Positions 9,093 to 37,167 of a stretch of DNA of 64,000 bases are shown here, piece after piece; within the stretch, counting starts at the first letter, position 1; each line of letters begins with the position of its first letter. The stretch is from contig NZ_JABENB010000001.1 in the NCBI RefSeq assembly GCF_013002715.1, forward strand, positions 1,488,001 through 1,552,000. Direction: 5' to 3'. Under the pieces are notes generated by a model, which saw nothing but the letters and a program-made list of their open reading frames with translations, was not told where the DNA came from and searched no databases. The position numbers and the translations under genes were made by a program. The DNA is from Flexivirga aerilata (GTDB taxonomy: Bacteria; Actinomycetota; Actinomycetes; Actinomycetales; Dermatophilaceae).

Positions 9093-9839
9093 TCACTTGA
9101 AGTGGATCACGTACTGGAAGTCGGCTTGCGCGTCGGAGATGTTCACGTGCGAGCGGGTGCCGTAACCAAGCGGCGTGTTCCAGTTGTATTCCTCGACGTC
9201 GAACGATCCGTCGTCATAGACCTTGTTGATGTAGGCGACGTGACCGACCTTGTGGACGTCGTTCACCGCGATGCCGCCGACGACAGGCTGGGTGTCGACG
9301 ACCAGTCCGGCGCCGCGAGCGGCGTCGTCCCAGGTGCCGGCATCACCGAAATGCTGTCCGCGCCAGTCGTTTGCGAAGTCGCCGATGCCGAGCCGATCGG
9401 CGATCCGGAAGGCGGCGAATGCGGTGCACTGGTCCTTGGCGAAACCGTAGGTCTGATGGTTGAAGTCGTCCCGCGGCTCCTCACCGGCGCTCGGTGGAGC
9501 AGGGTTGCAGTCGGGCACGCCGGGTGCTCGGCCGTCGGTGCCGGTGGTGAGGTATTTGTCGGGGACCCAGGTGTTGTCGGCGGTCTTGTCCCACAGGTCG
9601 GCGCCGGCGAATTGCTGGCAGACGACGGGCACCTGGGTGCCTTGGAGGTATTGGTTCTCGATGTGGCCGGGTGCGTCGGCCGGTTCGCCGATGTTCAGGC
9701 GGCCGTTGAGGTCGACCTTCGCCGGGAAGTTGGTGACCTGGTCGGCGCCGGCCGTGCCGCCGGCTGCGGTGAGCGCTCCGGTGAGCGTGGCGGCGGCGAT
9801 TGCTAGGGACGTCGCGCGACGTCCTGTCTTGGTCAACAT
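9093..9839 (-). CDS. Secreted CHAP-domain peptidoglycan hydrolase with SH3-like module
   Basis: 248 residues. A signal peptide (MLTKTGRRATSLAIAAATLT, Ala-rich cleavage region around AGGTAGADQ) is followed by a roughly 75-residue SH3-like wall-binding module (LNGRLNIGEPADAPGHIENQ to TDGRAPGVPDC) and a CHAP amidase/endopeptidase domain. The CHAP nucleophile is in KDQCTAFAAFRI, the histidine in KVGHVAYI and the third residue in VEEYNWN. ATG at 9839 follows AAAGGA. Its SH3 module DNA is nearly identical to that of the next gene. Probably a cell-wall remodelling or lytic enzyme exported by Sec. Confidence 0.88.
   Translation of the reverse strand: MLTKTGRRATSLAIAAATLTGALTAAGGTAGADQVTNFPAKVDLNGRLNIGEPADAPGHIENQYLQGTQVPVVCQQFAGADLWDKTADNTWVPDKYLTTGTDGRAPGVPDCNPAPPSAGEEPRDDFNHQTYGFAKDQCTAFAAFRIADRLGIGDFANDWRGQHFGDAGTWDDAARGAGLVVDTQPVVGGIAVNDVHKVGHVAYINKVYDDGSFDVEEYNWNTPLGYGTRSHVNISDAQADFQYVIHFK
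9504..9730 (-). repeat. 227-bp duplicated SH3-module DNA, copy 1
   Basis: Direct repeat of 10409-10635 at an offset of 905 bases. By eye I find a single difference (G at 9675, A at 10580). It covers the SH3-like module of the CHAP gene and stops at both domain edges. Confidence 0.95.
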
Positions 9840-26913: not shown

Positions 26914-27408
26914 TCACGACGCGAGACGACGGAACGCGCTGCCGTGGAAGACCAGTGGCTCGGCATCGCCGTCGACGCCGAGATCGAGCACCCGCAACAC
27001 GACGATGTCGTGGTCGCCGGCGCGAATCACGTTGTCGATGCTGGTTTCCAGCCACGCGCTCGCGCCCTCGACGAAGACCGCGCCGAGACGCGAGCTGCGC
27101 CATACGACATCACGGAAGCGGTCGGCCGACGGACCGCTGAGGTCGCGGCCGGCCTGGTGCTGGTGGGCGGCCAGCACGCTCACCCCGAGATGTGGCCGGT
27201 CCCGCAGCAGCGGCCAGGTCGACGAGGTGTGCGCGACGCACACCGACACGAGCGCGGGCTCGAGCGACACCGAGGTGAACGAACTCGCCGCGAGGCCCCG
27301 GGGGTCGTCGCCGACCATTGCGGCGACGGCCGTGACACCGCTCGGGTATGCCGCGAAGACCTTTCGCAGCCGGACGGTTTCGATGGTCGAGTCGGTGGTG
27401 ACGGTCAT
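26914..27408 (-). CDS. Flavin reductase-like FMN-binding protein
   Basis: 164 residues of the DIM6/NTAB flavin reductase family: AYPSGVTAVAAMVGDDPRGL, SFTSVSLEPALVSVCVA and a C-terminal PLVFHGSAFRRL. Such proteins hand FMNH2 to two-component LLM monooxygenases. Its ATG overlaps the stop of the preceding LLM gene as ATGA, so it is the fourth gene of the SAM-riboswitch-led operon. Confidence 0.9.
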   Translation of the reverse strand: MTVTTDSTIETVRLRKVFAAYPSGVTAVAAMVGDDPRGLAASSFTSVSLEPALVSVCVAHTSSTWPLLRDRPHLGVSVLAAHQHQAGRDLSGPSADRFRDVVWRSSRLGAVFVEGASAWLETSIDNVIRAGDHDIVVLRVLDLGVDGDAEPLVFHGSAFRRLAS

Positions 27409-28520
27409 CGCTGCTGCCATTCCTTCGCGAGTAGTTGGAAGGACCGCACCCGGTCCTGGTGGTCGTGGGTGATGGTGGTGACCAGCAGTTCGTCGGCCCC
27501 GGTCGCGCGCTGCAGGGCATCGAGGCGGTCGGCGACGTGGGCGGCGGTGCCGACGAACTGGGTGGCGAGCCGGTCGGCGACCAGAGCGTCGTCGGCATCG
27601 GTCCAGGGCAGGGACCGGGCTTCGTCAGGAGTCGGGAACGGAATCGCGCCGGATGCGTTGCGAATGCTACGAACCCAGGGCGCGTAACCTGCGGCCAGCT
27701 CTCGCGCGGTCGCCTCGTCCTCGGCGACGACGACGTCGGCGGAGACGATCACCTGTGGCTCGGCGAGGGCACTGCTCGGCTCGAACGCCGCGCGGTAGGC
27801 CGCAACGGCGTCGAGCACCTTGGCCGGCGCGACGTGGTAGTTGGCCCCGAAGGGCAGCCCGTGGCGACCGGCGAGCCGCGCGCTCTCTCCTCCGCTGCTG
27901 CCGTGGATCCAGATCTGGAGTCCGGCTCCCTCGCCCGGGACCACCTGCGCGCGCTCGCCGTTCGGGTGCCGGTAGCCGCCGCGGAGAAGGGCCAACAGGT
28001 CGGCCACCTGATCGCCGTAGGGCGGCGGCGTCGCGCCGGGCTGGATGAGCAGGGAGCGCTGCAGCTCGATCCGCGGTGAGCCGGCCAGGTGAGCGAAGGA
28101 GAACGGCGGCGGGAGCACCAATCCTTCTGGGGTTGTGCGGGTTTGCGTCTCATCGGTCGGGCCGTCGCCACTGGGCGGCGCGCCGCCCGACCGGCCGAGT
28201 CCGAGATCCACGCGGCCGGGATGAAGCGCGTCCACGAGCGCGAACTCCTCCAGTACCGACAGGGCGGTCCGGTGACCCATCTGGACGGCTGCGGCGCCGA
28301 GACGGATGCTCGACGTTGCGGCCGCCGCGAGTGCGATCACGACCGCGGGTGATGTGCCGGCGACGCCTGGGTTGAGGTGGTGCTCGGCGAACCAGTAACG
28401 CTGATAACCGAATTCCTCTGCCCGGCGAGCGAGGTCGATGCTGTTGCGCAGCGCGTCGCCGGCGGTCGAGCCGCTCGGCACCGGCACCAGGTCGAGCACC
28501 GACAAGGGCACCCTGCTCAC
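27405..28520 (-). CDS. LLM-class flavin-dependent oxidoreductase (third of operon)
   Basis: 371 residues, luciferase-like TIM barrel: SVLDLVPVPSGSTAGDALRN, YWFAEHHLNPGVAGTSPAVV and LGLGRSGG are typical of the LuxA-like group annotated as MsnO8-like. The GTG start at 28520 overlaps the previous stop (GTGA) and its own stop overlaps the flavin reductase start (ATGA). Probably uses FMNH2 and O2. In a SAM-controlled operon a sulfur substrate is the likely target. Confidence 0.9.
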   Translation of the reverse strand: MSRVPLSVLDLVPVPSGSTAGDALRNSIDLARRAEEFGYQRYWFAEHHLNPGVAGTSPAVVIALAAAATSSIRLGAAAVQMGHRTALSVLEEFALVDALHPGRVDLGLGRSGGAPPSGDGPTDETQTRTTPEGLVLPPPFSFAHLAGSPRIELQRSLLIQPGATPPPYGDQVADLLALLRGGYRHPNGERAQVVPGEGAGLQIWIHGSSGGESARLAGRHGLPFGANYHVAPAKVLDAVAAYRAAFEPSSALAEPQVIVSADVVVAEDEATARELAAGYAPWVRSIRNASGAIPFPTPDEARSLPWTDADDALVADRLATQFVGTAAHVADRLDALQRATGADELLVTTITHDHQDRVRSFQLLAKEWQQR

Positions 28521-29890
28521 GAGGCGGCCTGCCGATCGGCCGCCGGCTCCTGCGGCCGCAGGCCGAGGTTGTCGCGCAGGGTGCCTCCCTCGTAGTCGGT
28601 GCGGAAGACGCCACGCTCCTGCAGCAGCGGAACGACCTGATCCACAAAGGAATCCAGCCCGGTCGGCGTGAGGTGCGGCACGAGGATGAAGCCATCGCTC
28701 GCGTCCTGCTGCACGAAGTCGTTGAGTTGCCCGGCGATGGTCTGCGGCGCACCGACGAAGCTCTGCCGTGCGGTCACCTCGATGATGAGCTCGCGGATCG
28801 ACAGGCCACCGGCGGCTGCTCTCTCGCGCCAGTCGCGCGCTGTCTGCAGGACATCCTCGTGGCGGCGCACGCTGGCCCGTCCCTGCGCGACGGTGTTCTC
28901 CCCGGGCAGCGGGTCGACGTCGGGCAGCGGCCCGTCGGGGTCGTATGCCGAGAGGTCTCGATTCCAGAGCTGCTCCAGGAAGTTGATGGCGGTCGCGCCG
29001 CTCACCTGCTGGCGCCGCACCTCGGCGGCGAGGTCGCGTGCCTCGGCGTCCGAGTCGCCGAGCACGAAGGTGGCCGCCGGCAGGATGAGCAGGTCGTCCC
29101 GGGTGCGGCCGTGGGCGGGCAGCCGCCGCTTCACGTCGGCATAGAAGGCTTGACCCGCCTCCAGCGTGCTGTGCCTGCTGAAGATCGCGTCGGCACGCGC
29201 GGCGGCGAACTCGCGGCCCTCGTCGGAGTCCCCGGCCTGGAAGATGACCGGCCGACCTTGCGGGGATCGTGGCACGTTGAACTGCCCTGCGATGTCGAAG
29301 TGTTCGTCGCGATGGGCGTAGCTGCCGACGTCCGGGCGCCGCACGAACGTGCCGGCCGCCTTGTCCGCGACGAGGTCGTCGGCGGCCCAGGTGTCCCACA
29401 GCTCTGTCGCGGTCTCGAGGAATGCCTTGGCCCGCGCGTAGCGATCCTCCTGGCGCAGGTAACCGCCGCGGCGGAAGTTCTCGCCGGTGAAGGCGTCCCA
29501 CGAGGTGACGACGTTCCACGCCGCGCGCCCGCCGGAGAGATGGTCGAGCGTGGCGAATTGCCGCGCCACCTCGTAGGGCTCGTTGAAGGTCGAGTTGATC
29601 GTGCCCGTCAGGCCGAGGTGGTCGGTGACCGCGGCCAGGGCCGCGAGCACCGAGAAGGTGTCGGGTCTGCCCACCACGTCCAGGTCGTAGATCTGCCCGC
29701 GCTGCTCGCGCAGCCGGAGCCCCTCGGCGAGGAAGAGGAAGTCGAACTTGCCCCGCTCGGCGGTCCGGGCGAAGTGACGGAACGACTCGAACTCGATGTG
29801 GCTGCCGGCGGCAGGGTCGCTCCAGACGGTGGTGTTGTTGACTCCGGGAAAGTGGGCAGCAAGGTGAATCTGCTTTGTTTTCTTGGACAT
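28517..29890 (-). CDS. NtaA/SnaA/DszA-family flavin-dependent monooxygenase (second of operon)
   Basis: 457 residues, the long LLM type that includes dibenzothiophene sulfone (DszA) and nitrilotriacetate (NtaA) monooxygenases. Seen: KQIHLAAHFPGVNNTTVWSD, LAEGLRLREQRGQIYDLD, SGGRAAWNVVTSWDAFTGEN and PVIFQAGDSDEGREFAA. ATG 29890 has a GAGGAGC site, 12 bases after the preceding stop. Predicted to cleave C-S bonds of an organosulfur compound with FMNH2 from the operon's reductase; substrate not determinable from sequence. Confidence 0.9.
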   Translation of the reverse strand: MSKKTKQIHLAAHFPGVNNTTVWSDPAAGSHIEFESFRHFARTAERGKFDFLFLAEGLRLREQRGQIYDLDVVGRPDTFSVLAALAAVTDHLGLTGTINSTFNEPYEVARQFATLDHLSGGRAAWNVVTSWDAFTGENFRRGGYLRQEDRYARAKAFLETATELWDTWAADDLVADKAAGTFVRRPDVGSYAHRDEHFDIAGQFNVPRSPQGRPVIFQAGDSDEGREFAAARADAIFSRHSTLEAGQAFYADVKRRLPAHGRTRDDLLILPAATFVLGDSDAEARDLAAEVRRQQVSGATAINFLEQLWNRDLSAYDPDGPLPDVDPLPGENTVAQGRASVRRHEDVLQTARDWRERAAAGGLSIRELIIEVTARQSFVGAPQTIAGQLNDFVQQDASDGFILVPHLTPTGLDSFVDQVVPLLQERGVFRTDYEGGTLRDNLGLRPQEPAADRQAAS

Positions 29891-29901
29891 TCGGCTGCTC
29901 C

Positions 29902-31113
29902 TCACGCGATCGCGTAGCGACTGACGGGCCGGTCGAGCCCGAAGTGGCCCCGCAGGGTGTCGGCTGTGTAGTGCGCACGGAACGCGCCGAGTCGCTGGAG
30001 CGCGGGCACCAATTGCTGGGTGATCTGCGTGAGGTCGTGTGGCACCGTCGCGGGCCGGAGCCGGAATCCGTCGACTCCGGACTCCTGCCAGGTGACCAGG
30101 TGCTCGGCGAGTTGCTCCGCGGTGCCGACGAAGACGCTCGCGTCGCTGGCGAACTCCTCCCCGTGCCAGTCGTCGAGCAGGTCCTTGCGGGCGCGGGCTG
30201 CGGGTGCGGTGTCGTCGAGGAAGACCACCAGGTCGGCGAGCACCGAGACGCTCTCCGGGTCACGCCCGGCATCGACGGCGGCACTGCGTATGACGGAGAC
30301 GTCCGCGCGCGCCGCGGCCTCGTCGCCCGGTGCGATCAGTCCGATGTCGGCGGTGCGGCCGATCAGCTCCAGCCCGTCCCGCTGGTGCGCGAGGACGGCA
30401 ACCAATGGCTGGCCCTGCGGCGGTCGCGGGGTGATCGACGGCCCGCGGACCGAGAAGTGAGATCCCTCGAAATCGATGTAGTGCAAGCGATCCCGGTCGA
30501 CGAAGCGTCCCGTGGCGACGTCCCGGATCTCGGCGTCGTCCTCCCAGCTGTCCCACAGGCGTCGCAGCACCTCGATGTAGTCGGCGACTTCTCCGAAAAG
30601 CTCTCGCGTCGCCTCCGCGGTGGGTGCCGCACGGCCGCCGACCTGCGCAACGAGTGCCGGCGCGGACCGGCGGCCCACATTGGCGAACTCCTCCGGGCTG
30701 GCGCTCGTGCGCACCCGGACACCCGCCCGTCCGCCGCTGACGTAGTCGAGTGTCGCCGTCGCCTTGGAGATGTGAAACGGCTCGGTGAGTGGGGCCACCA
30801 CCGTCGGCACCAGGCCGATGCGTGCGGTGACCGGTGCGACGCGCGCGGCGACGAGCTCGGCATCCAGTCGGCCGGTCACCAGGTCGGTGCGATGTGAGGG
30901 GCGAACATGGTGGTCGGCGGTGGCCGCCAAGCCGTCCTCGAACGTGACGAAGTCGAGCAGTCCGCGTTCGGCCTCCTGCACGACGTCTACCCAGTGGCGG
31001 GCCGTGAAGAGCTGGTCGGGACGGGCTTCGGCCGCGCGCCAGGCGGCGGGGTGTGCGCCGGCGCCGTCGAGGGCGACTGCGAGGTGGAGTGGGTTGCTGT
31101 GAGGCATCGACAT
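29902..31113 (-). CDS. LLM-class flavin-dependent oxidoreductase (first of operon)
   Basis: 403 residues. PLHLAVALDGAGAHPAAWR, LDYVSGGRAGVRVRTSAS and PQGQPLVAVLAHQRDGLELI mark it as an LLM enzyme close to the NtaA/DszA group. First gene after the minus-strand SAM-IV riboswitch; ATG 31113 with GAAGGAAG. The codons for Val-Ile-Arg at about 30287 use ATA inside a GTCATACG word. Confidence 0.88.
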   Translation of the reverse strand: MSMPHSNPLHLAVALDGAGAHPAAWRAAEARPDQLFTARHWVDVVQEAERGLLDFVTFEDGLAATADHHVRPSHRTDLVTGRLDAELVAARVAPVTARIGLVPTVVAPLTEPFHISKATATLDYVSGGRAGVRVRTSASPEEFANVGRRSAPALVAQVGGRAAPTAEATRELFGEVADYIEVLRRLWDSWEDDAEIRDVATGRFVDRDRLHYIDFEGSHFSVRGPSITPRPPQGQPLVAVLAHQRDGLELIGRTADIGLIAPGDEAAARADVSVIRSAAVDAGRDPESVSVLADLVVFLDDTAPAARARKDLLDDWHGEEFASDASVFVGTAEQLAEHLVTWQESGVDGFRLRPATVPHDLTQITQQLVPALQRLGAFRAHYTADTLRGHFGLDRPVSRYAIA

Positions 31114-31187
31114 CGCTTCCTTCTACGGGTGCGGAGTCGCGTCGTCATCACCGAATCATGCTGAAGTGAAAGACGATTCGCGCTTGC

Positions 31188-31290
31188 GGCATCGGGTGAT
31201 GCCGCCGGGTCATCACCTGGAGCACCCCACCGCGGCGGAGGGTTGCCGGACGACCAGCCAGGGCTTCGCGTCGTCTCTCGTGACCAGTGC
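31188..31290 (-). ncRNA. SAM-IV-type riboswitch leading the LLM operon
   Basis: The RNA (5' end near 31290) shows P1 from GGUCAC (31285-31280) with GUGAUGACC (ending 31208), the family core GAGAGACGACGCGAAGCC, UCCGGCAACCCUCC and the GCGGUGGGGUGCUCC block, then a perfect 8-bp hairpin (31207-31188). This matches the actinobacterial SAM-IV (SAM clan) pattern as I know it. It lies about 75 bases before the first LLM start, so S-adenosylmethionine should lower expression, probably at translation since no terminator is visible. Confidence 0.88.
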
Positions 31291-31318
31291 CGACCGTAGA
31301 CCAGGATGGTCGATCTGT

Positions 31319-31343
31319 CGAATGTCTACGCGATCGGTAGGGA
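31319..31343. promoter_or_regulatory. Conserved 25-bp motif, copy 1 (LLM operon side)
   Basis: CGAATGTC-T-AC-N7-GTAGGGA. The same pattern occurs at 31877-31901 with identical spacing. It sits just upstream of the minus-strand riboswitch, where the -35 region is expected. TGTCTAC/GTAGGGA form a partial dyad, a candidate site for the Rrf2 regulator encoded between the two copies. Confidence 0.55.
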
Positions 31344-31354
31344 TTGCGCGCGGG

Positions 31355-31810
31355 TCAGCGCGGCAGCCACGCGTCCTCGATCTCGTTGAGTCGGCGGACC
31401 TTCGCAGGGAAGTTCCCCGACAGCAGCTGCTGCAGACTCACCGTGTCGAGGACGGAGCGAAGGCTGGATCGCACGGCGACCCACAGATCAGGCAAATGCG
31501 TTGCTACGCCGTCGTATTCGGTCTCGTGCGGGCGCAGCCCCCGCACCTCGGCGAGCGGTCCGTCGACCGCGCGAATGATCTCTCCCAGATAGATCTGGGC
31601 GGGCGGTCGACGGAGCAGATATCCGCCGGAACAGCCGCGACGGGTCTCGACCAGTCCGGCCCGCCGCAGCTGCCCGAGGATCGATTCGAGGAACTTTCGG
31701 GGCAGCTCCTGCTCCGCCGCGATGTTCTCGACCTTGGCGAGTTCTGGGTAGTGGGAGGCGAGTTCGAGGGCGGCGCGGATCGCGTAATCGCTGCGAGCGG
31801 AGATCTGCAC
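31355..31810 (-). CDS. Rrf2-family transcriptional regulator, CymR-like
   Basis: 151 residues. The winged helix is clear: QISARSDYAIRAALELASHY, VENIAAEQELPRKFLESILG and LRRAGLVETRRGCSGGYLLR. The three C-terminal cysteines that ligate an Fe-S cluster in IscR/NsrR are missing; the only cysteine is in the wing. In this it resembles CymR, the cysteine-metabolism repressor. GTG start at 31810 with GGAAGGAG. It lies between two SAM riboswitch units, consistent with sulfur control. Confidence 0.9.
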   Translation of the reverse strand: MQISARSDYAIRAALELASHYPELAKVENIAAEQELPRKFLESILGQLRRAGLVETRRGCSGGYLLRRPPAQIYLGEIIRAVDGPLAEVRGLRPHETEYDGVATHLPDLWVAVRSSLRSVLDTVSLQQLLSGNFPAKVRRLNEIEDAWLPR

Positions 31811-31876
31811 GCTGCCGCTCCTTCCTCGGTGCCGGTGAGCAGGCGTAGCCACCCACGATAGCGGCTCCGGGCACAC

Positions 31877-31901
31877 CGAATGTCCACCATGTGAGTAGGG
31901 A
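31877..31901. promoter_or_regulatory. Conserved 25-bp motif, copy 2 (ABC operon side)
   Basis: CGAATGTC-C-AC-N7-GTAGGGA, matching copy 1 at all fixed positions. It ends 11 bases before the -35 of the ABC operon promoter, suggesting a common regulator of both units. Confidence 0.55.
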
Positions 31902-31912
31902 ATAGCCAAACC

Positions 31913-31941
31913 TTGTGTAAGACAAAACAACTGGTTATGTT
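31913..31941 (+). promoter_or_regulatory. Predicted promoter of the ABC-transporter operon (TTGTGT-N17-TATGTT)
   Basis: -35 TTGTGT (31913-31918) and -10 TATGTT (31936-31941), 17 bases apart, immediately upstream of the plus-strand riboswitch. The transcript would begin right at the riboswitch. Confidence 0.6.
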
Positions 31942-31944
31942 CGG

Positions 31945-32050
31945 CGCAGGTGACGAGAGGCAGCGTCAAGCCCTGGCTTGCTGTCCGGCAACCCTCCGCC
32001 GCGGTGGGGTGCTCCAGGTGACCACCGGATGTGCCCGGCTCCGGGCGCAT
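31945..32050 (+). ncRNA. SAM-IV-type riboswitch leading the ABC-transporter operon
   Basis: GGUGAC (31949-31954) opens P1, then GAGAGGCAGCGUCAAGCC, the CCUGGCUUGCUG arm, UCCGGCAACCCUCC, GCGGUGGGGUGCUCC and the closing GGUGACCACC (ending 32026). A 10-bp hairpin (32029-32038/32041-32050) follows and the ribosome site AAGGGAG of the permease gene starts near 32061. The central conserved segments are identical to those of the minus-strand copy. Translation control of the first gene is the likely mode. Confidence 0.9.
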
Positions 32051-32071
32051 AAGCGCGAGAAAGGGAGACCC

Positions 32072-33040
32072 ATGCCCCTGGTCACTGCCGCATCCTCGTC
32101 GGTGCGGTCCGAGAGGGCCGTGCCGGAGGACGATCTGCGGGACACCGTCCTGGTCGGTCGGCGTCGGCCGCTGCAGTGGGTGATCGCCGTCGCGGCGCTC
32201 GTCCTGCTGGCCATGCTGGTCAACACGCTGCTCACCAACCCGCGATTCGAATGGCACGTGGTGGGGGACTACCTCTTCAGTGCGGCGATCCTGCGTGGAC
32301 TCGTGCTCACGCTGTGGCTCACCGCCGCCGTGATGGTGAGCGGCTACCTGCTGGGCATCGGCGTCGCGGCCCTTCGCCTGTCGGACAACACCGTGCTGCG
32401 TTCGGTCAGCTTCGGCTTCGTGTGGTTCGTGCGGTCGGTGCCGCCACTGGTGCAACTGCTCTTCTGGTTCGAACTCGCCTCCCTCTATCCCCGGCTCTCG
32501 CTCGGCATCCCGTTCGGTCCGGAGTTCGTCGCGGTGCAGACCACGCACCTGCTGTCGGCCGTCGCCGCGGCATACGTCGCCCTCACGGTCGACGTCGCGG
32601 CGTTCGCGTCCGAGATCGTCCGCGGCGGGATCCTGGCGGTCGAACGCGGTCAGACGGAGGCGGCCGACGCGCTCGGCCTCACCCGCGTGCGGACCTTCCG
32701 CCGGGTCGTGCTGCCGCAGGCGATGCCGGCGATCATCCCGGCCTCCGGCAACCTGCTCATCGGCATGCTCAAGGCCACCTCGCTGGTCAGCGTGATCGCG
32801 GTGCAGGATCTGCTCGGCGCCACCGAGCTGATCTACAACGACAACTTCAAGGTCATCCCGCTGCTCATCGTGGCGACGGTCTGGTATCTGCTGTTGACCA
32901 GCCTGCTGTCGGTCCTGCAGCTCGGTCTGGAGCGCCGCTTCTCGCGCGGCAAACGCGGATCGGCACACCGCTCAGCACTGGCCGTATGGCGGTCCAACCT
33001 GCACCCCCTCTCGCATCGCCGACTCCGAGTGGAGGCCTGA
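32072..33040 (+). CDS. Polar amino acid-type ABC transporter permease
   Basis: 322 residues, HisM/TcyB-like. An N-terminal cytoplasmic tail of about 45 residues precedes several membrane helices. The EAA loop reads GGILAVERGQTEAADALGLT and is followed by FRRVVLPQAMPAIIPASGN. The substrate class (His/Glu/cystine/opine group) plus SAM-riboswitch control suggest import of cystine, methionine or another sulfur compound. ATG 32072 has AAGGGAG. Confidence 0.92.
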   Translation: MPLVTAASSSVRSERAVPEDDLRDTVLVGRRRPLQWVIAVAALVLLAMLVNTLLTNPRFEWHVVGDYLFSAAILRGLVLTLWLTAAVMVSGYLLGIGVAALRLSDNTVLRSVSFGFVWFVRSVPPLVQLLFWFELASLYPRLSLGIPFGPEFVAVQTTHLLSAVAAAYVALTVDVAAFASEIVRGGILAVERGQTEAADALGLTRVRTFRRVVLPQAMPAIIPASGNLLIGMLKATSLVSVIAVQDLLGATELIYNDNFKVIPLLIVATVWYLLLTSLLSVLQLGLERRFSRGKRGSAHRSALAVWRSNLHPLSHRRLRVEA

Positions 33041-33044
33041 GGTC

Positions 33045-33803
33045 ATGGCCGGAAGTGTGCGAATCCGCAGCCTGCACAAGAGCTTTGCCGGTCAGGAGGT
33101 GTTGCACGGCATCGACCTCGACGTGGCGGCGGGCAGTGTGACGGTCATCCTCGGGCCGTCCGGCTCGGGAAAGTCCACCCTGCTGCGGTGCATCAACCAC
33201 CTGGAGTCACCGGACGCCGGCTACGTCGAGGTGGGCGGGGAGATCATCGGCTACCGGCGCGACGGTCACCGGCTGCGCGAGCGGTCGCCGCGGGAGATCG
33301 CCCGGCAGCGCAGTCGCATCGGCATGGTCTTCCAGCAGTTCAATCTCTTCGGTCACCAGACCGCGGCGCAGAACATCATGGAGGGCCAGCTCGCCGCCGG
33401 AGTGCCGACCGAGCAGGCGCGCCGGCGGGCGAGTGAGTTGCTCGCGCGGGTGGGCCTGGCCGGCCGCGAAAACGCTTATCCCAGTGCGTTGTCCGGCGGT
33501 CAACAGCAACGGGTGGCGATCGCCCGTGCGCTCGCGGTCGATCCCGACCTCATCTTGTTCGACGAGCCGACGAGCGCGCTCGACCCGGAGCTGGTCGGCG
33601 AGGTGCTCGCGGTCATCAAGGACCTCGCCGACAGCGGCATCACCCTGATCGTGGTCACCCACGAGATCGGCTTCGCCCGCGAGGTCGCCGACGAGGTCGT
33701 CTTCGTCGATCACGGCCGAGTGGTCGAGACGGGGCCGCCGGCCGCAGTGCTCGACCACACCGAGAACGACCGCGCTCGGGCATTCCTGTCCGCGGTGCTT
33801 TAA
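33045..33803 (+). CDS. Polar amino acid-type ABC transporter ATP-binding protein
   Basis: 252 residues, GlnQ/TcyC-like. Walker A GPSGSGKST, Q-loop MVFQQFNLFGHQT, signature LSGGQQQRVAIARAL, Walker B LILFDEPTSALDPE and H-loop VTHEIGFAREVA are all intact. It begins four bases after the permease stop and energises that permease. Confidence 0.95.
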   Translation: MAGSVRIRSLHKSFAGQEVLHGIDLDVAAGSVTVILGPSGSGKSTLLRCINHLESPDAGYVEVGGEIIGYRRDGHRLRERSPREIARQRSRIGMVFQQFNLFGHQTAAQNIMEGQLAAGVPTEQARRRASELLARVGLAGRENAYPSALSGGQQQRVAIARALAVDPDLILFDEPTSALDPELVGEVLAVIKDLADSGITLIVVTHEIGFAREVADEVVFVDHGRVVETGPPAAVLDHTENDRARAFLSAVL

Positions 33804-33826
33804 CCCCTCCGAGAGGACCAATTGTC

Positions 33827-34774
33827 ATGCATATCAGTCGATTTCGCCATGCCGTCGCGGCGGCCTCCATCGCTGCGACGACCCTCCTGGTCGCGGCCTG
33901 CGGCAGCAGCACGAGCTCGGCGGGCGCCGGAGGCGGAGGAGGCGCTGCCAAGGCCGTGCCCGCAGCAGACGTGACCTCCAAGGTCGCCGTCGACGGCGCC
34001 GCTCGCGCGCTGCTGCCGAAGGAAGTCCAGCGCAGCAACCAGCTCACGCTGGGCACCACCCAGGTGACCGGCACCGCCAGCCTTCCGCACGCCGGCATCG
34101 AGGGCGGCAAGCAGGTCGGCCTCGACCTCGACATCCGGGCGGCGGTCGCGCGGAAGCTGGGCATCGACTGGAAGGTGGACACCGGCACCTTCCAGACCAT
34201 CGTGCCCGGGGTGCAGAACGGCAAATACCAAGTGGGACAAGCCAATTTCGGGGTGACGAAGGACCGGCTGCAGGTCGTGGACTTCGCGACCTACCTGCGT
34301 GACGGCCAGTCGTTCGTCGGGCGCAGCGGCCTGCCGGTGAAGAAGGTGCGCACCCTGCAGGATGTCTGCGGGCTCAAGATCGCCACGTCCCCCGGCACCA
34401 CCTTCCAGAAACTCCTGCAGAGCGAGCAGGCCAAGTGCGCCGCGGCCGGCAAGAAGCCCTACACCGTGCAGTACTTCGCCGACACGGCCCCGATCTACCT
34501 GGGCCTGCAGAACGGCAAGGTCGACGTCTACTTCGGTCCGACCCTCAGCCTCAAGGTGTTGACCTCCAAGATCACCGGCACCACGTTCCTCGGCGAGGTC
34601 ACCCACACCCCAGTCGGGTTCGTGACCGCCAAGAAGTCACCGATCGCGCCCGCGCTCGTCGCCGCCGTCAACGACCTCATCAAGGACGGCACCTACCAGC
34701 GGATCTTCGACAAGTGGCAGGTCGGATCGTCGGTCATCGACAAGTCCGCACTCAACCCGGCACCGACCTTCTGA
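33827..34774 (+). CDS. ABC transporter substrate-binding lipoprotein (family 3)
   Basis: 315 residues. A lipoprotein signal with lipobox LVAAC (cysteine about residue 25) is followed by a Gly/Ser linker and a type-II binding fold: GLDLDIRAAVARKLGIDWKV, YQVGQANFGVTKDRLQVVDF and DVYFGPTLSLKVLTSK. It delivers substrate to the permease encoded two genes upstream. The ligand cannot be read from sequence; sulfur amino acid or organosulfur compound inferred from context. Confidence 0.92.
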   Translation: MHISRFRHAVAAASIAATTLLVAACGSSTSSAGAGGGGGAAKAVPAADVTSKVAVDGAARALLPKEVQRSNQLTLGTTQVTGTASLPHAGIEGGKQVGLDLDIRAAVARKLGIDWKVDTGTFQTIVPGVQNGKYQVGQANFGVTKDRLQVVDFATYLRDGQSFVGRSGLPVKKVRTLQDVCGLKIATSPGTTFQKLLQSEQAKCAAAGKKPYTVQYFADTAPIYLGLQNGKVDVYFGPTLSLKVLTSKITGTTFLGEVTHTPVGFVTAKKSPIAPALVAAVNDLIKDGTYQRIFDKWQVGSSVIDKSALNPAPTF

Positions 34775-34789
34775 GAACGGAGACACACC

Positions 34790-35587
34790 ATGACGATCCA
34801 CCAGGACACCGCGACCGCGACCGATCCTCTGCAGGAGGAGTGGGCGGCGTGGCACCGCGCCCACGAGGAGAAGCGGGCCGACCGCCACGGATTCCTCGCG
34901 ATCACCGGCCTGCACTTCCTCGACGAGGAACCGCGCAGCTTCCCCGACGCGCCCGGCGAATGGACCAGCACCGAGGACGGCGTCGTGGTCGACCTCGGGC
35001 CCGGTGAGTCCCTCGACCTCGCCGGCCAGCAGCTGACGGGCCGGCACTCCTTCGGTGTGTTGCCCGAACGTGGAGGAGTCACAGTGCATTTCGGCGATAT
35101 CGCGATCGAGGTCGCCAAACGCGGCGGCTACGACATCGTGCGTCCGCGGCACCCGGACAACCCGGTCCGCACGGCATACCTCGGGACGGAGGCATTCCCG
35201 GTGCGGGCGAGCTGGCGGATCCAGGCACACTTCACCCCGTATGCCGAGCCCGCGCCCACCCGCGTCGACGGGCTGGAGCACGTCTACGACGCGGTGGGGG
35301 AGGTCGGCTTCGAGCGGGCCGGCGCGCACTTCACGCTGCTCGCCTTCCCGGGTCACGCGGACGGCGAGCTGCTGATCCTCTTCTCCGACGCGACGGCCGG
35401 CGTGACCACGCATCCCGCCGTGCGCTCGCTCACGGTGACCCCCGACGCGGCAGGGCGCGTCGTGCTCGACTTCAACCGCGCGACCAATCTGCCTTGTGCC
35501 TACACGCAATTCGCGACGTGCCCGCTGCCGCCTCCGGCGAACAAGCTGTCGCTCGCGGTCACTGCGGGGGAGCGTCTGCCGCGATGA
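34790..35587 (+). CDS. DUF1684 family protein in the SAM-controlled operon
   Basis: 265 residues, soluble, no signal peptide. The family signature is plain: RHGFLAITGLHFLDEEP near the N-terminus and LDFNRATNLPCAYTQFATCP, PLPPPANKLSLAVTAGE at the end. No function is established for DUF1684. It starts 16 bases after the binding protein and its TGA overlaps the next ATG (ATGA), so it is co-translated with an LLM enzyme, which points to handling of a sulfur compound. Confidence 0.9.
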   Translation: MTIHQDTATATDPLQEEWAAWHRAHEEKRADRHGFLAITGLHFLDEEPRSFPDAPGEWTSTEDGVVVDLGPGESLDLAGQQLTGRHSFGVLPERGGVTVHFGDIAIEVAKRGGYDIVRPRHPDNPVRTAYLGTEAFPVRASWRIQAHFTPYAEPAPTRVDGLEHVYDAVGEVGFERAGAHFTLLAFPGHADGELLILFSDATAGVTTHPAVRSLTVTPDAAGRVVLDFNRATNLPCAYTQFATCPLPPPANKLSLAVTAGERLPR

Positions 35588-36717
35588 AGCTGCTTGCGAT
35601 CACCCTCGTCGTGCACGCGCCCGACCCGGCGACCGGCACGCTGGTGCCGACCCGGGAGCGCTTCGCCCAGGTGGTGCGCTCCGCCGAGCTGGCCGAGTCG
35701 CTCGGCTTCGACGGTTTCGGCGTCGGCGAGCGGCACGAGCGGCCGTTCCTCTCCTCGTCGCCCACCGTGCTCCTCTCCCACCTGGCGGCGCTCACCCGCC
35801 GCATCCGGCTCTTCACGGCTGTGACCACGTTGAGCCTGCTCGACCCCGTGCGCGCATATGAGGACTACGCGACCCTGGACCACCTGTCCGACGGGCGGCT
35901 CGAGCTGATCATCGGCAAGGGCAACGGCACCGCCCAGCGCGACCTCTTCGGAGTCACGCCGGAGGATCAGTGGGAGCGCAATGCCGAGTCGTACGAGGTG
36001 TTTCGGGCTCTGTGGCGTGATCAACCGGTGACCGCCGAGACGAGGTTTCGCCCGCCGTTGCGGGACGCGGAGGTGTGGCCGGAGCCGTTGCAGCGGCCGA
36101 TCCGCGTGTGGCACGGCAGCGCGACGAGCAGGGAGTCGGTGGACCTCGCCGCCCGCTATGGCGATCCGCTCTTCTCTGCCAATGTCACCGGCCCGATCGA
36201 GCCGTATGCCGCGCTCGTCGACCACTACCGCGAGCAGTGGGGGCACTACGGTCACGACCCGGCCCTGCTCACCGTCGGTGCCGGCTCCGCCGGCCTGTCG
36301 ATCGCGGCGCGCTCGCAGGACGCTCGAGCCGCCTTCGAGCCGGCGTTCGCGGCATACCTCGCCATGCAGGCCAACATCGGTGTCGAGCCGGTCTTTCCGA
36401 CTCTCGACGACTTCGTGCGTCGCAGCTCCGCCCTGATCGGCAGTCCGGAGGAGGTCATCGACAAGGTCGGCCGCTACCAGGAGCGACTCGGGCACTCCGT
36501 GCTGCACGTCGCGGCCGAGGGGCAGGGCGTCTCCGAGCAGACCCACCGCCACAGCCTGGAGCTGTTCGCGGCGCAGGTGGCGCCCGCACTACGCCGGCTG
36601 CCGGGCCCACCGGTCTGGGGCGGGGCCAGCGCCGACCCCGCCGCCGGGGTGTGTGAGAGTCGTGTCACCGACTCGGAACACCGCGCGCAGCGCGCGGTGC
36701 CGGTCGGCTCCGAGTGA
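35584..36717 (+). CDS. LLM-class flavin-dependent oxidoreductase (ABC operon)
   Basis: 377 residues, luciferase-like barrel: RSAELAESLGFDGFGVGERH, YEDYATLDHLSDGRLELIIG and PLFSANVTGPIEPYAALVDH. Fourth LLM enzyme of the locus and last gene of the plus-strand riboswitch unit, coupled by ATGA to DUF1684. The last 40 residues (after PPVWGGASADPAAG) are low-complexity and may be a non-catalytic tail. Confidence 0.9.
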   Translation: MKLLAITLVVHAPDPATGTLVPTRERFAQVVRSAELAESLGFDGFGVGERHERPFLSSSPTVLLSHLAALTRRIRLFTAVTTLSLLDPVRAYEDYATLDHLSDGRLELIIGKGNGTAQRDLFGVTPEDQWERNAESYEVFRALWRDQPVTAETRFRPPLRDAEVWPEPLQRPIRVWHGSATSRESVDLAARYGDPLFSANVTGPIEPYAALVDHYREQWGHYGHDPALLTVGAGSAGLSIAARSQDARAAFEPAFAAYLAMQANIGVEPVFPTLDDFVRRSSALIGSPEEVIDKVGRYQERLGHSVLHVAAEGQGVSEQTHRHSLELFAAQVAPALRRLPGPPVWGGASADPAAGVCESRVTDSEHRAQRAVPVGSE

Positions 36718-36741
36718 GTTCTCCCGAAAGGTGAAGTGCAC

Positions 36742-37167
36742 ATGCCAGAGAAGGTCACCGACGTCCTCTACACCACCGCCGCCACGTCCAAGGGCGGTCG
36801 CGACGGCACCGTCAAGAGCGCGGACGGCGTCATCGACCTGCCGCTCGGCAAGCCGGGCAGCACGTCCAACCCGAAGGCAAACCCCGAAACCCTTTTCGCA
36901 GCAGGCTATTCGGCATGCTTCTCCGGTGCGCTCAACGCGGTGGCCGGGCGAGAGGGCCTCGACACGAGCGAGTCGACGGTCACCGCCGACGTCAGCTTCG
37001 GCAAGACCGACTCCGGCTTCGGCCTCGGAATCACCCTCACCGCGAAGATCCCCGGGGTCGACGCGGCCAAGGCACAGGAGCTGGTCGAACAGGTGCACCA
37101 GATGTGCCCCTACTCCAAGGCGACCCGCGGCAACATCGAGGTCACCGTCGTCGGCGAGCCTGCCTGA
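36742..37167 (+). CDS. ohr: Organic hydroperoxide resistance protein (Ohr subfamily of OsmC)
   Basis: 141 residues. It begins MPEKVTDVLYTTAATSKGGR; the peroxidatic cysteine is in FAAGYSACFSGALNAV and the resolving cysteine in HQMCPYSKATRGNIEV, with Ohr-type spacing. It reduces organic hydroperoxides using lipoyl thiols. ATG 36742 follows AAAGGTG; the GTG two codons upstream is unlikely. It may form the tail of the preceding operon (25-base gap). Confidence 0.94.
   Translation: MPEKVTDVLYTTAATSKGGRDGTVKSADGVIDLPLGKPGSTSNPKANPETLFAAGYSACFSGALNAVAGREGLDTSESTVTADVSFGKTDSGFGLGITLTAKIPGVDAAKAQELVEQVHQMCPYSKATRGNIEVTVVGEPA

Follow-up and report, generated by a model that had tools for sequence, protein, structure and literature searches.

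A putative sulfur-scavenging locus of Flexivirga aerilata with twin SAM-IV riboswitches and a predicted Rrf2 operator

Introduction

What is the function of two divergent operons that each open with a riboswitch for S-adenosylmethionine (SAM), and what part does the regulator gene between them play? The question is raised by a 64,000-nucleotide stretch of DNA from the soil actinobacterium Flexivirga aerilata (assembly GCF_013002715.1, contig NZ_JABENB010000001.1, forward-strand positions 1,488,001 to 1,552,000; hereafter the window). The minus-strand operon encodes three luciferase-like monooxygenases (LLMs; NtaA1, NtaA2 and an MsnO8-family member) and a flavin reductase. The plus-strand operon encodes an amino-acid-type ATP-binding cassette (ABC) importer, a DUF1684 protein and a fourth monooxygenase, LLM4. 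The gene between them encodes a regulator of the Rrf2 family. Our comparative analysis suggests that this is probably a sulfur-scavenging locus under two serial controls, a predicted Rrf2 operator at the promoter and a SAM-IV riboswitch in the message.

In the proposed mechanism, the Rrf2 protein would bind a 25-bp palindrome upstream of each promoter and, by analogy with CymR, would report cysteine or sulfur status. The message of each operon would open with the SAM-IV aptamer at its first nucleotides, lowering expression when SAM is plentiful. With both sulfur and SAM short, the cell would make an ABC importer that takes up a small organosulfur compound with a carboxylate group, together with LLM monooxygenases that depend on reduced flavin mononucleotide. 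Fed by the flavin reductase, these would oxidise the sulfur and cut the C–S bond.

The regulator of sulfur-source choice in many actinobacteria is unsettled; the relevant section of PMC8557817 names candidates only, and a 2011 account states that the mycobacterial counterparts of CysB and Cbl were unidentified (PMC3141025). For this choice, the present analysis yields a regulator family, an operator and a target list, all directly testable. It also yields a rule for SAM-IV leaders, which divides those of methionine synthesis from those of scavenging. A preliminary description of the window is extended here by the operator, by the two classes of leader and by the finding that the twin-riboswitch layout recurs. 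Genomes and loci are denoted by our G and L numbers; G000 is the genome of F. aerilata itself.

SAM-IV riboswitches

The leaders were searched with cmscan against Rfam 15. Both align to positions 1–116 of the SAM-IV model, i.e. the whole model, with scores (Table 1) well above the gathering score of 38. They are the only matches in the window at the gathering scores, which bears out the divergent pair, one per operon, of the preliminary description. The ATG of the importer operon (32072) lies 10 nt past the plus-strand aptamer and that of the LLM operon (31113) lies 61 nt downstream of the minus-strand aptamer.

The 4.0-Mb genome contains six SAM-IV copies. The four outside the locus precede metY, metX, a class-V aminotransferase gene and a MetQ-type binding-protein gene that is accompanied by genes for a MetN-like ATPase and a permease. 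Family models identify an O-acetylhomoserine/O-acetylserine sulfhydrylase (766 bits, cut-off 703) and the homoserine O-acetyltransferase MetX (414 bits, cut-off 331) behind these elements; the nearest models to the aminotransferase are SufS-type cysteine desulfurases, under whose cut-offs it falls. SAM-IV precedes a class-V aminotransferase gene (e.g. L008:7595-9052) in all nine genomes with BLAST-checked leaders. The SAM-IV leaders would turn expression down at high SAM; we claim no switching mechanism.

Predicted operator

Cross-species comparison of the two intergenic stretches revealed a 25-bp near-palindrome, AATSYCYAY-N7-RTRGRSATT, upstream of both promoters. A weight matrix was built from 13 sites, which score 18.3–32.4 when left out; the whole locus was removed each time, except that for the window just the single site was removed, and the sister Streptacidiphilus was kept in. 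In 2 Mb of Markov control sequence, four matches score at least 11, one at least 13 and none 14 or above. The genome of F. aerilata has only two sites with at most one pattern mismatch, both at the organosulfur locus. The genome-wide pattern scan covers G077, G085 and part of G080 only among the matches listed; the reversed pattern, as a control, gave 2–8 matches per strand per genome. We treated as chance matches those that fall within genes (e.g. G080 C53 at 47119), and likewise most sites with two mismatches.

Further sites were found outside the matrix. The Actinoplanes promoter before LLM4 scores 22.5. In L047 and L043, where rrf2 is divergent to a TauE/SafE gene, the intergenic sites score 27.0 and 10.4, respectively. 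Relatives of the regulator gene are also found next to sulfate cysPTWA operons or as their last gene. Operator-like sites before cysP score 11.9–18.4 in L037, L038, L039, L040, L041, L044 and L048 and 15.0 in G080 (L166), and weaker versions of the operator occur in 8 of the 10 sulfate-importer operons linked to rrf2. L047 comes from another member of the bacterial family; its site (9663-9687) lies between rrf2 and the TauE/SafE gene, and these could form an autoregulated sulfite-export pair. In a Frankiales metagenome-assembled genome (MAG), a zero-mismatch operator (L172:5142-5166) without SAM-IV precedes a cysteine dioxygenase-like and then a rhodanese-like gene.

We predict that the palindrome is the binding site of the Rrf2 protein encoded between the operons. 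It might instead belong to another sulfur regulator and be linked to Rrf2 by neighbourhood only, as could be read from the weaker Rrf2 homologs (39–47%) in some genomes whose importer promoter has no site. We regard this as improbable. The operator tracks close Rrf2 orthologs in Flexivirga, G027, Streptacidiphilus, the Frankiales MAG and Actinoplanes, and does so even where rrf2 and the module lie on different contigs (G080, G081); sites also stand beside rrf2 without any SAM-IV (L047 and the sulfate operons).

Two classes of SAM-IV leader

All 43 SAM-IV leaders in the eight genomes with a close Rrf2 (G000, 6; G004, 6; G003, 7; G002, 5; G027, 8; G077, 3; G085, 5; G080, 3) were scored over 135 nt upstream, with matrices built without the genome in question and its near twin. 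The operator score is at least 16.2 at 22 leaders and at most 8.2 at the other 21. Those with an operator lead the importer permease (8), NtaA1 (8), a second permease (2) and an MFS-GNAT-LLM4 unit, a DUF1684 gene, an IclR-TauD unit and a GNAT gene (1 each). Those without one lead a class-V aminotransferase (8), metX (5), metY (4), metQ (3) and a flavin adenine dinucleotide (FAD) oxidoreductase (1). The operator is thus present at 22/22 acquisition-gene leaders and at 0/21 of the rest. These counts are not phylogenetically independent, as G000 and G004 are nearly identical here and one site at L076 serves both sides. BLAST and family models, applied to the first gene after each of the 43 leaders, confirmed the labels. 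Among random windows, 1% score at least 10, with a maximum of 34.1; since this null contained real sites, we rely on the Markov control and the methionine-class leaders.

The pairing extends beyond the two window operons. G027 has three further strong operators, before a second importer, DUF1684 and MFS-GNAT-LLM4, each directly followed by SAM-IV (82.0–95.7 bits). Operator and SAM-IV also occur together before the IclR-TauD unit in F. endophytica, before the GNAT gene in Streptacidiphilus jeojiense and before the second-importer permease in G002, which is 68% identical to its G027 counterpart. G001, a Flexivirga without a close Rrf2, has three SAM-IV elements, all of the methionine class, with operator scores of at most 3.9. 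Double control therefore appears to mark sulfur-scavenging genes and to be absent from ordinary methionine-synthesis genes. Downstream in the second importer unit of G002 (L200:2703-7350) lie a binding-protein gene, a further gene of LLM type and, on the same strand, a GNAT match.

Conservation of the locus

The arrangement of two operons, two riboswitches and an Rrf2 gene is conserved in G002, G003 and G004 (same genus). It is also conserved in G027 (another genus of the family), whose organosulfur locus is without the DUF1684 and LLM4 genes. A search with the solute-binding protein (SBP) of the importer gave 39 loci at 50% identity or more, including Gordonia, Tsukamurella, Kutzneria, Streptomyces, Streptacidiphilus, Actinoplanes, Sciscionella and Nocardioides; they were drawn from 80 of 146 confirmed loci, some on short contigs, and include the G003 and G004 loci again (L054, L052). 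NtaA1, NtaA2 and MsnO8 occur in the same stretch in 22 of the 39. A SAM-IV element leads the importer in ten, the one at L059 being weak (34.7 bits). Divergent SAM-IV pairs occur in five (F. meconopsidis, F. endophytica, two Streptacidiphilus and the Frankiales MAG), in addition to the window, G002 and G027; the twin-riboswitch layout is therefore a recurrent feature and not a local accident.

Operator and regulator occur together. Genomes without an Rrf2 of at least 50% identity contribute 23 module loci; over the 750 bp ahead of the permease, 22 of these reach no more than 2.3. Of seven with a close Rrf2, six score at least 21.8 before the permease; in the seventh, Actinoplanes L082, the site precedes LLM4, which lies just upstream of the permease. 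This count covers loci that were both scored and searched for Rrf2, so that Tsukamurella L071, L073, L077, L085 and L089 (no operator; Rrf2 not searched), the MAG fragments L061 and L083 (Rrf2 not searched) and L075, L081 and L088 (not scored) stand outside it. In Metallococcus and three Gordonia loci, the importer is led by a SAM-IV element, with no close Rrf2 and no operator. The conserved locus, the shared operator and the leader split together support what the preliminary description had read as one regulon for organosulfur uptake and monooxygenation.

The Rrf2 regulator

The alignment shows one cysteine in the whole regulator, at position 60. The protein therefore cannot hold the usual Fe-S cluster, and the earlier statement that it is without Fe-S cysteines stands. 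That description also called it CymR-like. We used the term for a protein with the Rrf2 fold, no Fe-S cysteines and operator-like sites at sulfur operons, and all three were found. The CymR equivalog model NF047409 gives 83.9 bits against a cut-off of 195, so the regulator appears CymR-like by analogy and not by family membership. The lone cysteine lies in the wing (RGC[SA]GGY). It is kept in 5/5 organosulfur-locus proteins (alignment group A2) and is a possible thiol sensor; the relatives at the sulfate loci L037, L038, L041, L045 and L048 have Ala or Pro instead.

Matches to the regulator at E 1e-25 occur in 19 of 58 related genomes, F. aerilata included. Fifteen of the Rrf2 loci are distinct from the organosulfur locus. 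In nine of them (L037-L041, L044, L045, L048, L051) the regulator gene neighbours cysP of a sulfate ABC operon, and SAM-IV was found in none of the 15 (E 0.01). G002 has two Rrf2 genes, one of the organosulfur-locus kind and one of the sulfate-locus kind.

Promoter geometry and the sign of Rrf2 action

The operator ends 34–36 nt before the aptamer in 13 leaders and 45–46 nt before it in five, i.e. in 18 of the 22 operator-bearing leaders. A further leader, in MAG L061, has the distance of 35 nt. The exceptions are −6 nt at L170 and L171 (site over the −10 element), 27 nt at L200 (weak promoter) and 64 nt at L076 (shared site). In 17 scored leaders (G004 pair omitted, L061 included), the −35 and −10 elements are spaced by 17 or 18 bp and the −10 element ends 7–8 nt before the aptamer, a fit that is partly by construction, as the best −35/−10 pair was picked in a narrow range. 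In six methionine-class leaders scored alongside, the −10 element ends 5–10 nt before the aptamer.

The two main operator positions are about one helical turn apart, which suggests contact with RNA polymerase, hence activation. The operators that overlap the −10 element (L170, L171) point to repression. IscR, a relative within the Rrf2 family, both activates and represses. In our view plain repression is about as likely as activation. If the regulator were a plain CymR-type repressor everywhere, the upstream sites would block the promoter from the −35 side; we put the chance of this a little short of even. Besides the two G027 units with the site over −10, several sulfate operons have sites that seem, by eye, to lie at or after −10, and CymR represses cysteine genes with a sensor made of CysK and O-acetylserine (PMC2940859, PMC3828012). 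Such a repressor has to be squared with the 18 of 22 leaders whose site lies upstream of the promoter-like elements. The farther of their two positions is awkward for a steric block and usual for activators.

At L171:5034-5058 and L170:5023-5047, the operator also overlaps the first bases of the aptamer, and one stretch serves as both DNA site and strand of the RNA P1 helix.

Gene families at the locus

The features of the locus are listed in Table 1. The minus-strand genes are tightly packed, with gaps of 11 bp (NtaA1–NtaA2) and 5 bp (NtaA2–MsnO8) and an overlap of 16 bp between MsnO8 and the flavin reductase; three LLMs with a flavin reductase had been described here, correctly. Family models likewise agree with the amino-acid-type importer, DUF1684 protein and fourth LLM assigned to the plus strand. 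A single LLM of the DszA/SnaA/NtaA type had been noted among the minus-strand enzymes; two of the three are of this type, NtaA1 by a score just under the cut-off.

Table 1. Predicted features of the organosulfur locus (window coordinates)
Feature	Position	Strand	Evidence
Flavin reductase	26914-27420	minus	PF01613 121.5 bits
MsnO8-family LLM monooxygenase	27405-28511	minus	TIGR03558 296.3 bits, above cut-off 166.95
NtaA2, NtaA/DmoA-family LLM monooxygenase	28517-29890	minus	TIGR03860 418.9 bits, above cut-off 279.7
NtaA1, NtaA/DmoA-like LLM monooxygenase	29902-31113	minus	TIGR03860 268.5 bits, just below cut-off 279.7
SAM-IV riboswitch, LLM/flavin-reductase operon leader	31175-31285	minus	cmscan RF00634 101.1 bits, E 2.2e-17
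Predicted promoter, LLM operon	31293-31321	minus	−35 TCGACA, 17 bp, −10 TACGGT
Predicted Rrf2 operator B	31321-31345	minus	zero mismatches; leave-out score 26.7; 35 nt before aptamer, touches −35
Rrf2-family regulator without Fe-S cysteines	31355-31810	minus	Pfam Rrf2 111.4 bits
Predicted Rrf2 operator A	31879-31903	plus	zero mismatches; leave-out score 23.3; 45 nt before aptamer, 9 nt before −35
Predicted promoter, importer operon	31913-31941	plus	−35 TTGTGT, 17 bp, −10 TATGTT
SAM-IV riboswitch, importer operon leader	31949-32061	plus	cmscan RF00634 101.8 bits, E 1.5e-17
Amino-acid-type ABC permease	32072-33040	plus	PF00528; top models ectoine and cystine permease, both under cut-off
ABC ATPase	33045-33803	plus	top model cystine TcyN 315.5 bits, cut-off 406
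Family-3 solute-binding lipoprotein (SBP)	33827-34774	plus	PF00497 66.6 bits
DUF1684 protein, C-x7-C pair near C-terminus	34790-35587	plus	PF07920 132.5 bits; motif read from sequence
LLM4, CE1758-like LLM monooxygenase	35584-36717	plus	TIGR04036 233.5 bits, cut-off 479
Ohr-family peroxiredoxin (OsmC fold), possible last plus-operon gene	36736-37167	plus	TIGR03561 154.8 bits, cut-off 88.85

Enzymes, importer and substrate

The best solved relative of NtaA2 is YtnJ (1yw1; 284 bits), followed by nitrilotriacetate monooxygenase (264 bits) and DszA (257 bits). For NtaA1, nitrilotriacetate monooxygenase (165 bits) is followed by YtnJ (151 bits). NtaA and EmoA of the same family cleave C–N bonds, and a non-sulfur role for the enzymes, on an aminopolycarboxylate or in other C–N cleavage, with the sulfur control incidental, would fit the high rank of nitrilotriacetate monooxygenase for both proteins. 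The regulation makes such a role a long shot. Control by SAM-IV or by sulfur-operon-linked Rrf2 recurs across distant lineages, the same double control precedes the IclR-TauD unit, and the operator precedes the cysteine dioxygenase-like and rhodanese-like genes.

An LLM enzyme with a flavin reductase is the classic pair for desulfonation, so the substrate might be an alkanesulfonate or a sulfone (as for SsuD or SfnG) and not an S-substituted cysteine. We consider this unlikely, as NtaA2 scores only 48 bits with the SsuD model and 73 bits with the SfnG model, far under the cut-offs of 518 and 383, and the importer is of the amino-acid type. Its permease scores only 26 bits on the SsuC model, and its family-3 SBP has an arginine, R147, that is invariant in 26/26 aligned proteins and that we take to be the carboxylate contact.

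In the window SBP, nothing aligns with the aspartate of AncQR that presumably contacts the amino group of the ligand; the position falls between a Gly and a Pro. At this place 20 module SBPs have Gly-Pro or a like pair and no Asp; the Actinomadura relatives have Asp. The missing aspartate leads us to guess at a substrate without a free amino group, possibly an S-substituted, perhaps N-acylated, cysteine of the mercapturate type. No acetyltransferase or deacetylase is found among the ten locus genes scanned; elsewhere in the genome, a deacetylase and other acetyltransferases were not searched for. A GNAT gene adjoins related units in G027 and Streptomyces AcH 505. N-acetylation was considered as a route and dropped for the window, as a search with the G027 GNAT at E 1e-30 found nothing in the genomes of F. 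aerilata, G001, G003, G004 and G058. A Haloferax DUF1684 member with a motif like C-x7-C has been placed in a thiol relay (PMC9426492).

A more ambitious reading, which we hold only tentatively, makes Rrf2 a master regulator of sulfur-source choice. It would activate the SAM-IV-led organosulfur genes from sites one turn apart upstream of −35 and repress sulfate-import genes over −10. Scavenging would be gated by cysteine at the DNA and by SAM at the RNA, and the operator–aptamer cassette would travel as operons break up. The substrate would be an N-blocked S-substituted cysteine of the mercapturate type, bound by an SBP that keeps the carboxylate arginine without the amino-group aspartate.

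Several observations weigh against a doubly controlled sulfur-scavenging locus as set out above. Folding of the minus leaders (window, L033, L034) shows no switch that sequesters the Shine-Dalgarno (SD) sequence. With the pseudoknot strand free and then held, SD accessibility stays at 0.60 in the window, goes from 0.60 to 0.58 in L033 and drops slightly, from 0.97 to 0.85, in L034, where the SD was taken as GAG rather than GAAGG; all five minus leaders given a plain fold have the pseudoknot strand partly paired with sequence downstream. Two of the ten sulfate operons (L045, L051) have no recognisable operator, and the sites of the others are weaker than those of the window. The SAM-IV at L214, before the FAD oxidoreductase, is without an operator, and a relative of this oxidoreductase adjoins the pathway in Streptomyces AcH 505. 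At Nocardioides L079, whose genome has a 42% homolog and no close Rrf2, the operator score is 12.8. With SAM-IV before the importer in only 10/39 loci, other lineages regulate the module differently. Among the enzymes, nitrilotriacetate monooxygenase and DszA are close behind YtnJ for NtaA2 and the former leads for NtaA1. The lack of a GNAT match in the F. aerilata genome leaves a Bacillus-like N-acetylation route unsupported here.

Comparison with known systems

The closest analogue is the salvage of S-substituted cysteine by the ytm and yxe systems of Bacillus under CymR. The ytmI operon of B. subtilis (TcyJKLMN, CmoO, CmoJ/YtnJ; CymR/YtlI) resembles the locus in its cystine-type ABC importer, an NtaA-type LLM near YtnJ and an Rrf2-family regulator. 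We take CmoJ to be YtnJ, and CmoO and CmoJ to lie in this operon. CmoO and CmoJ oxidise S-alkylcysteine and split the sulfoxide (PMC10863075), and CymR–CysK represses the operon (PMC9239247). Unlike ytmI, the locus has a SAM-IV leader for each operon, a pair of NtaA-type enzymes, LLMs like MsnO8 and CE1758 and a DUF1684 protein, and among the ten genes scanned it lacks an acetyltransferase, a deacetylase and a LysR regulator. YxeK is also an LLM enzyme. The yxeKLMNOPQ system of B. subtilis, for breakdown of S-(2-succino)cysteine, shares an LLM monooxygenase and an ABC importer with the window (PMC9706529). An acetyltransferase is a further likeness, to the related units in G027 and Streptacidiphilus; gene set and regulation differ.

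In Corynebacterium glutamicum, the sulfonate and sulfonate-ester genes under McbR, SsuR and CysR provide actinobacterial LLM enzymes under sulfur control. These regulators are of other families, and we know of no Rrf2 operator there. IGTS8_peg394 of Rhodococcus qingshengii is an Rrf2/CymR candidate for a global sulfur regulator, detected only in dibenzothiophene culture (PMC8557817). It differs in that the section devoted to it describes no operator or regulon and an immediate neighbourhood without sulfur metabolism proteins (PMC8557817). CymR-like control and SAM riboswitches are each known already. We found no description of the two stacked on one gene class with this operator, and no SAM-IV and Rrf2-operator pairing, in the titles, abstracts and passages covered from the open-licence literature on the SAM-IV riboswitch, on monooxygenases and sulfonates and on Rrf2/CymR in actinobacteria.

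Other features

A sulfate ABC permease over the TIGR00969 cut-off is present in 3 of the 10 genomes searched (G001, G002, G080). F. aerilata has none over this cut-off, other types of sulfate transporter not having been searched. Genes of the 3′-phosphoadenosine 5′-phosphosulfate (PAPS) reductase family are present in all 10, that of F. aerilata included. The Ohr gene starts 18 bp past the plus operon and adjoins LLM4 also in the Flexivirga loci L033, L034 and L036. Two separate segments of the MsnO8-type LLM match the family model (profile positions 1–110 and 123–324); between them lie about 36 residues beyond those of the model, an insertion that could form a distinct active-site loop.

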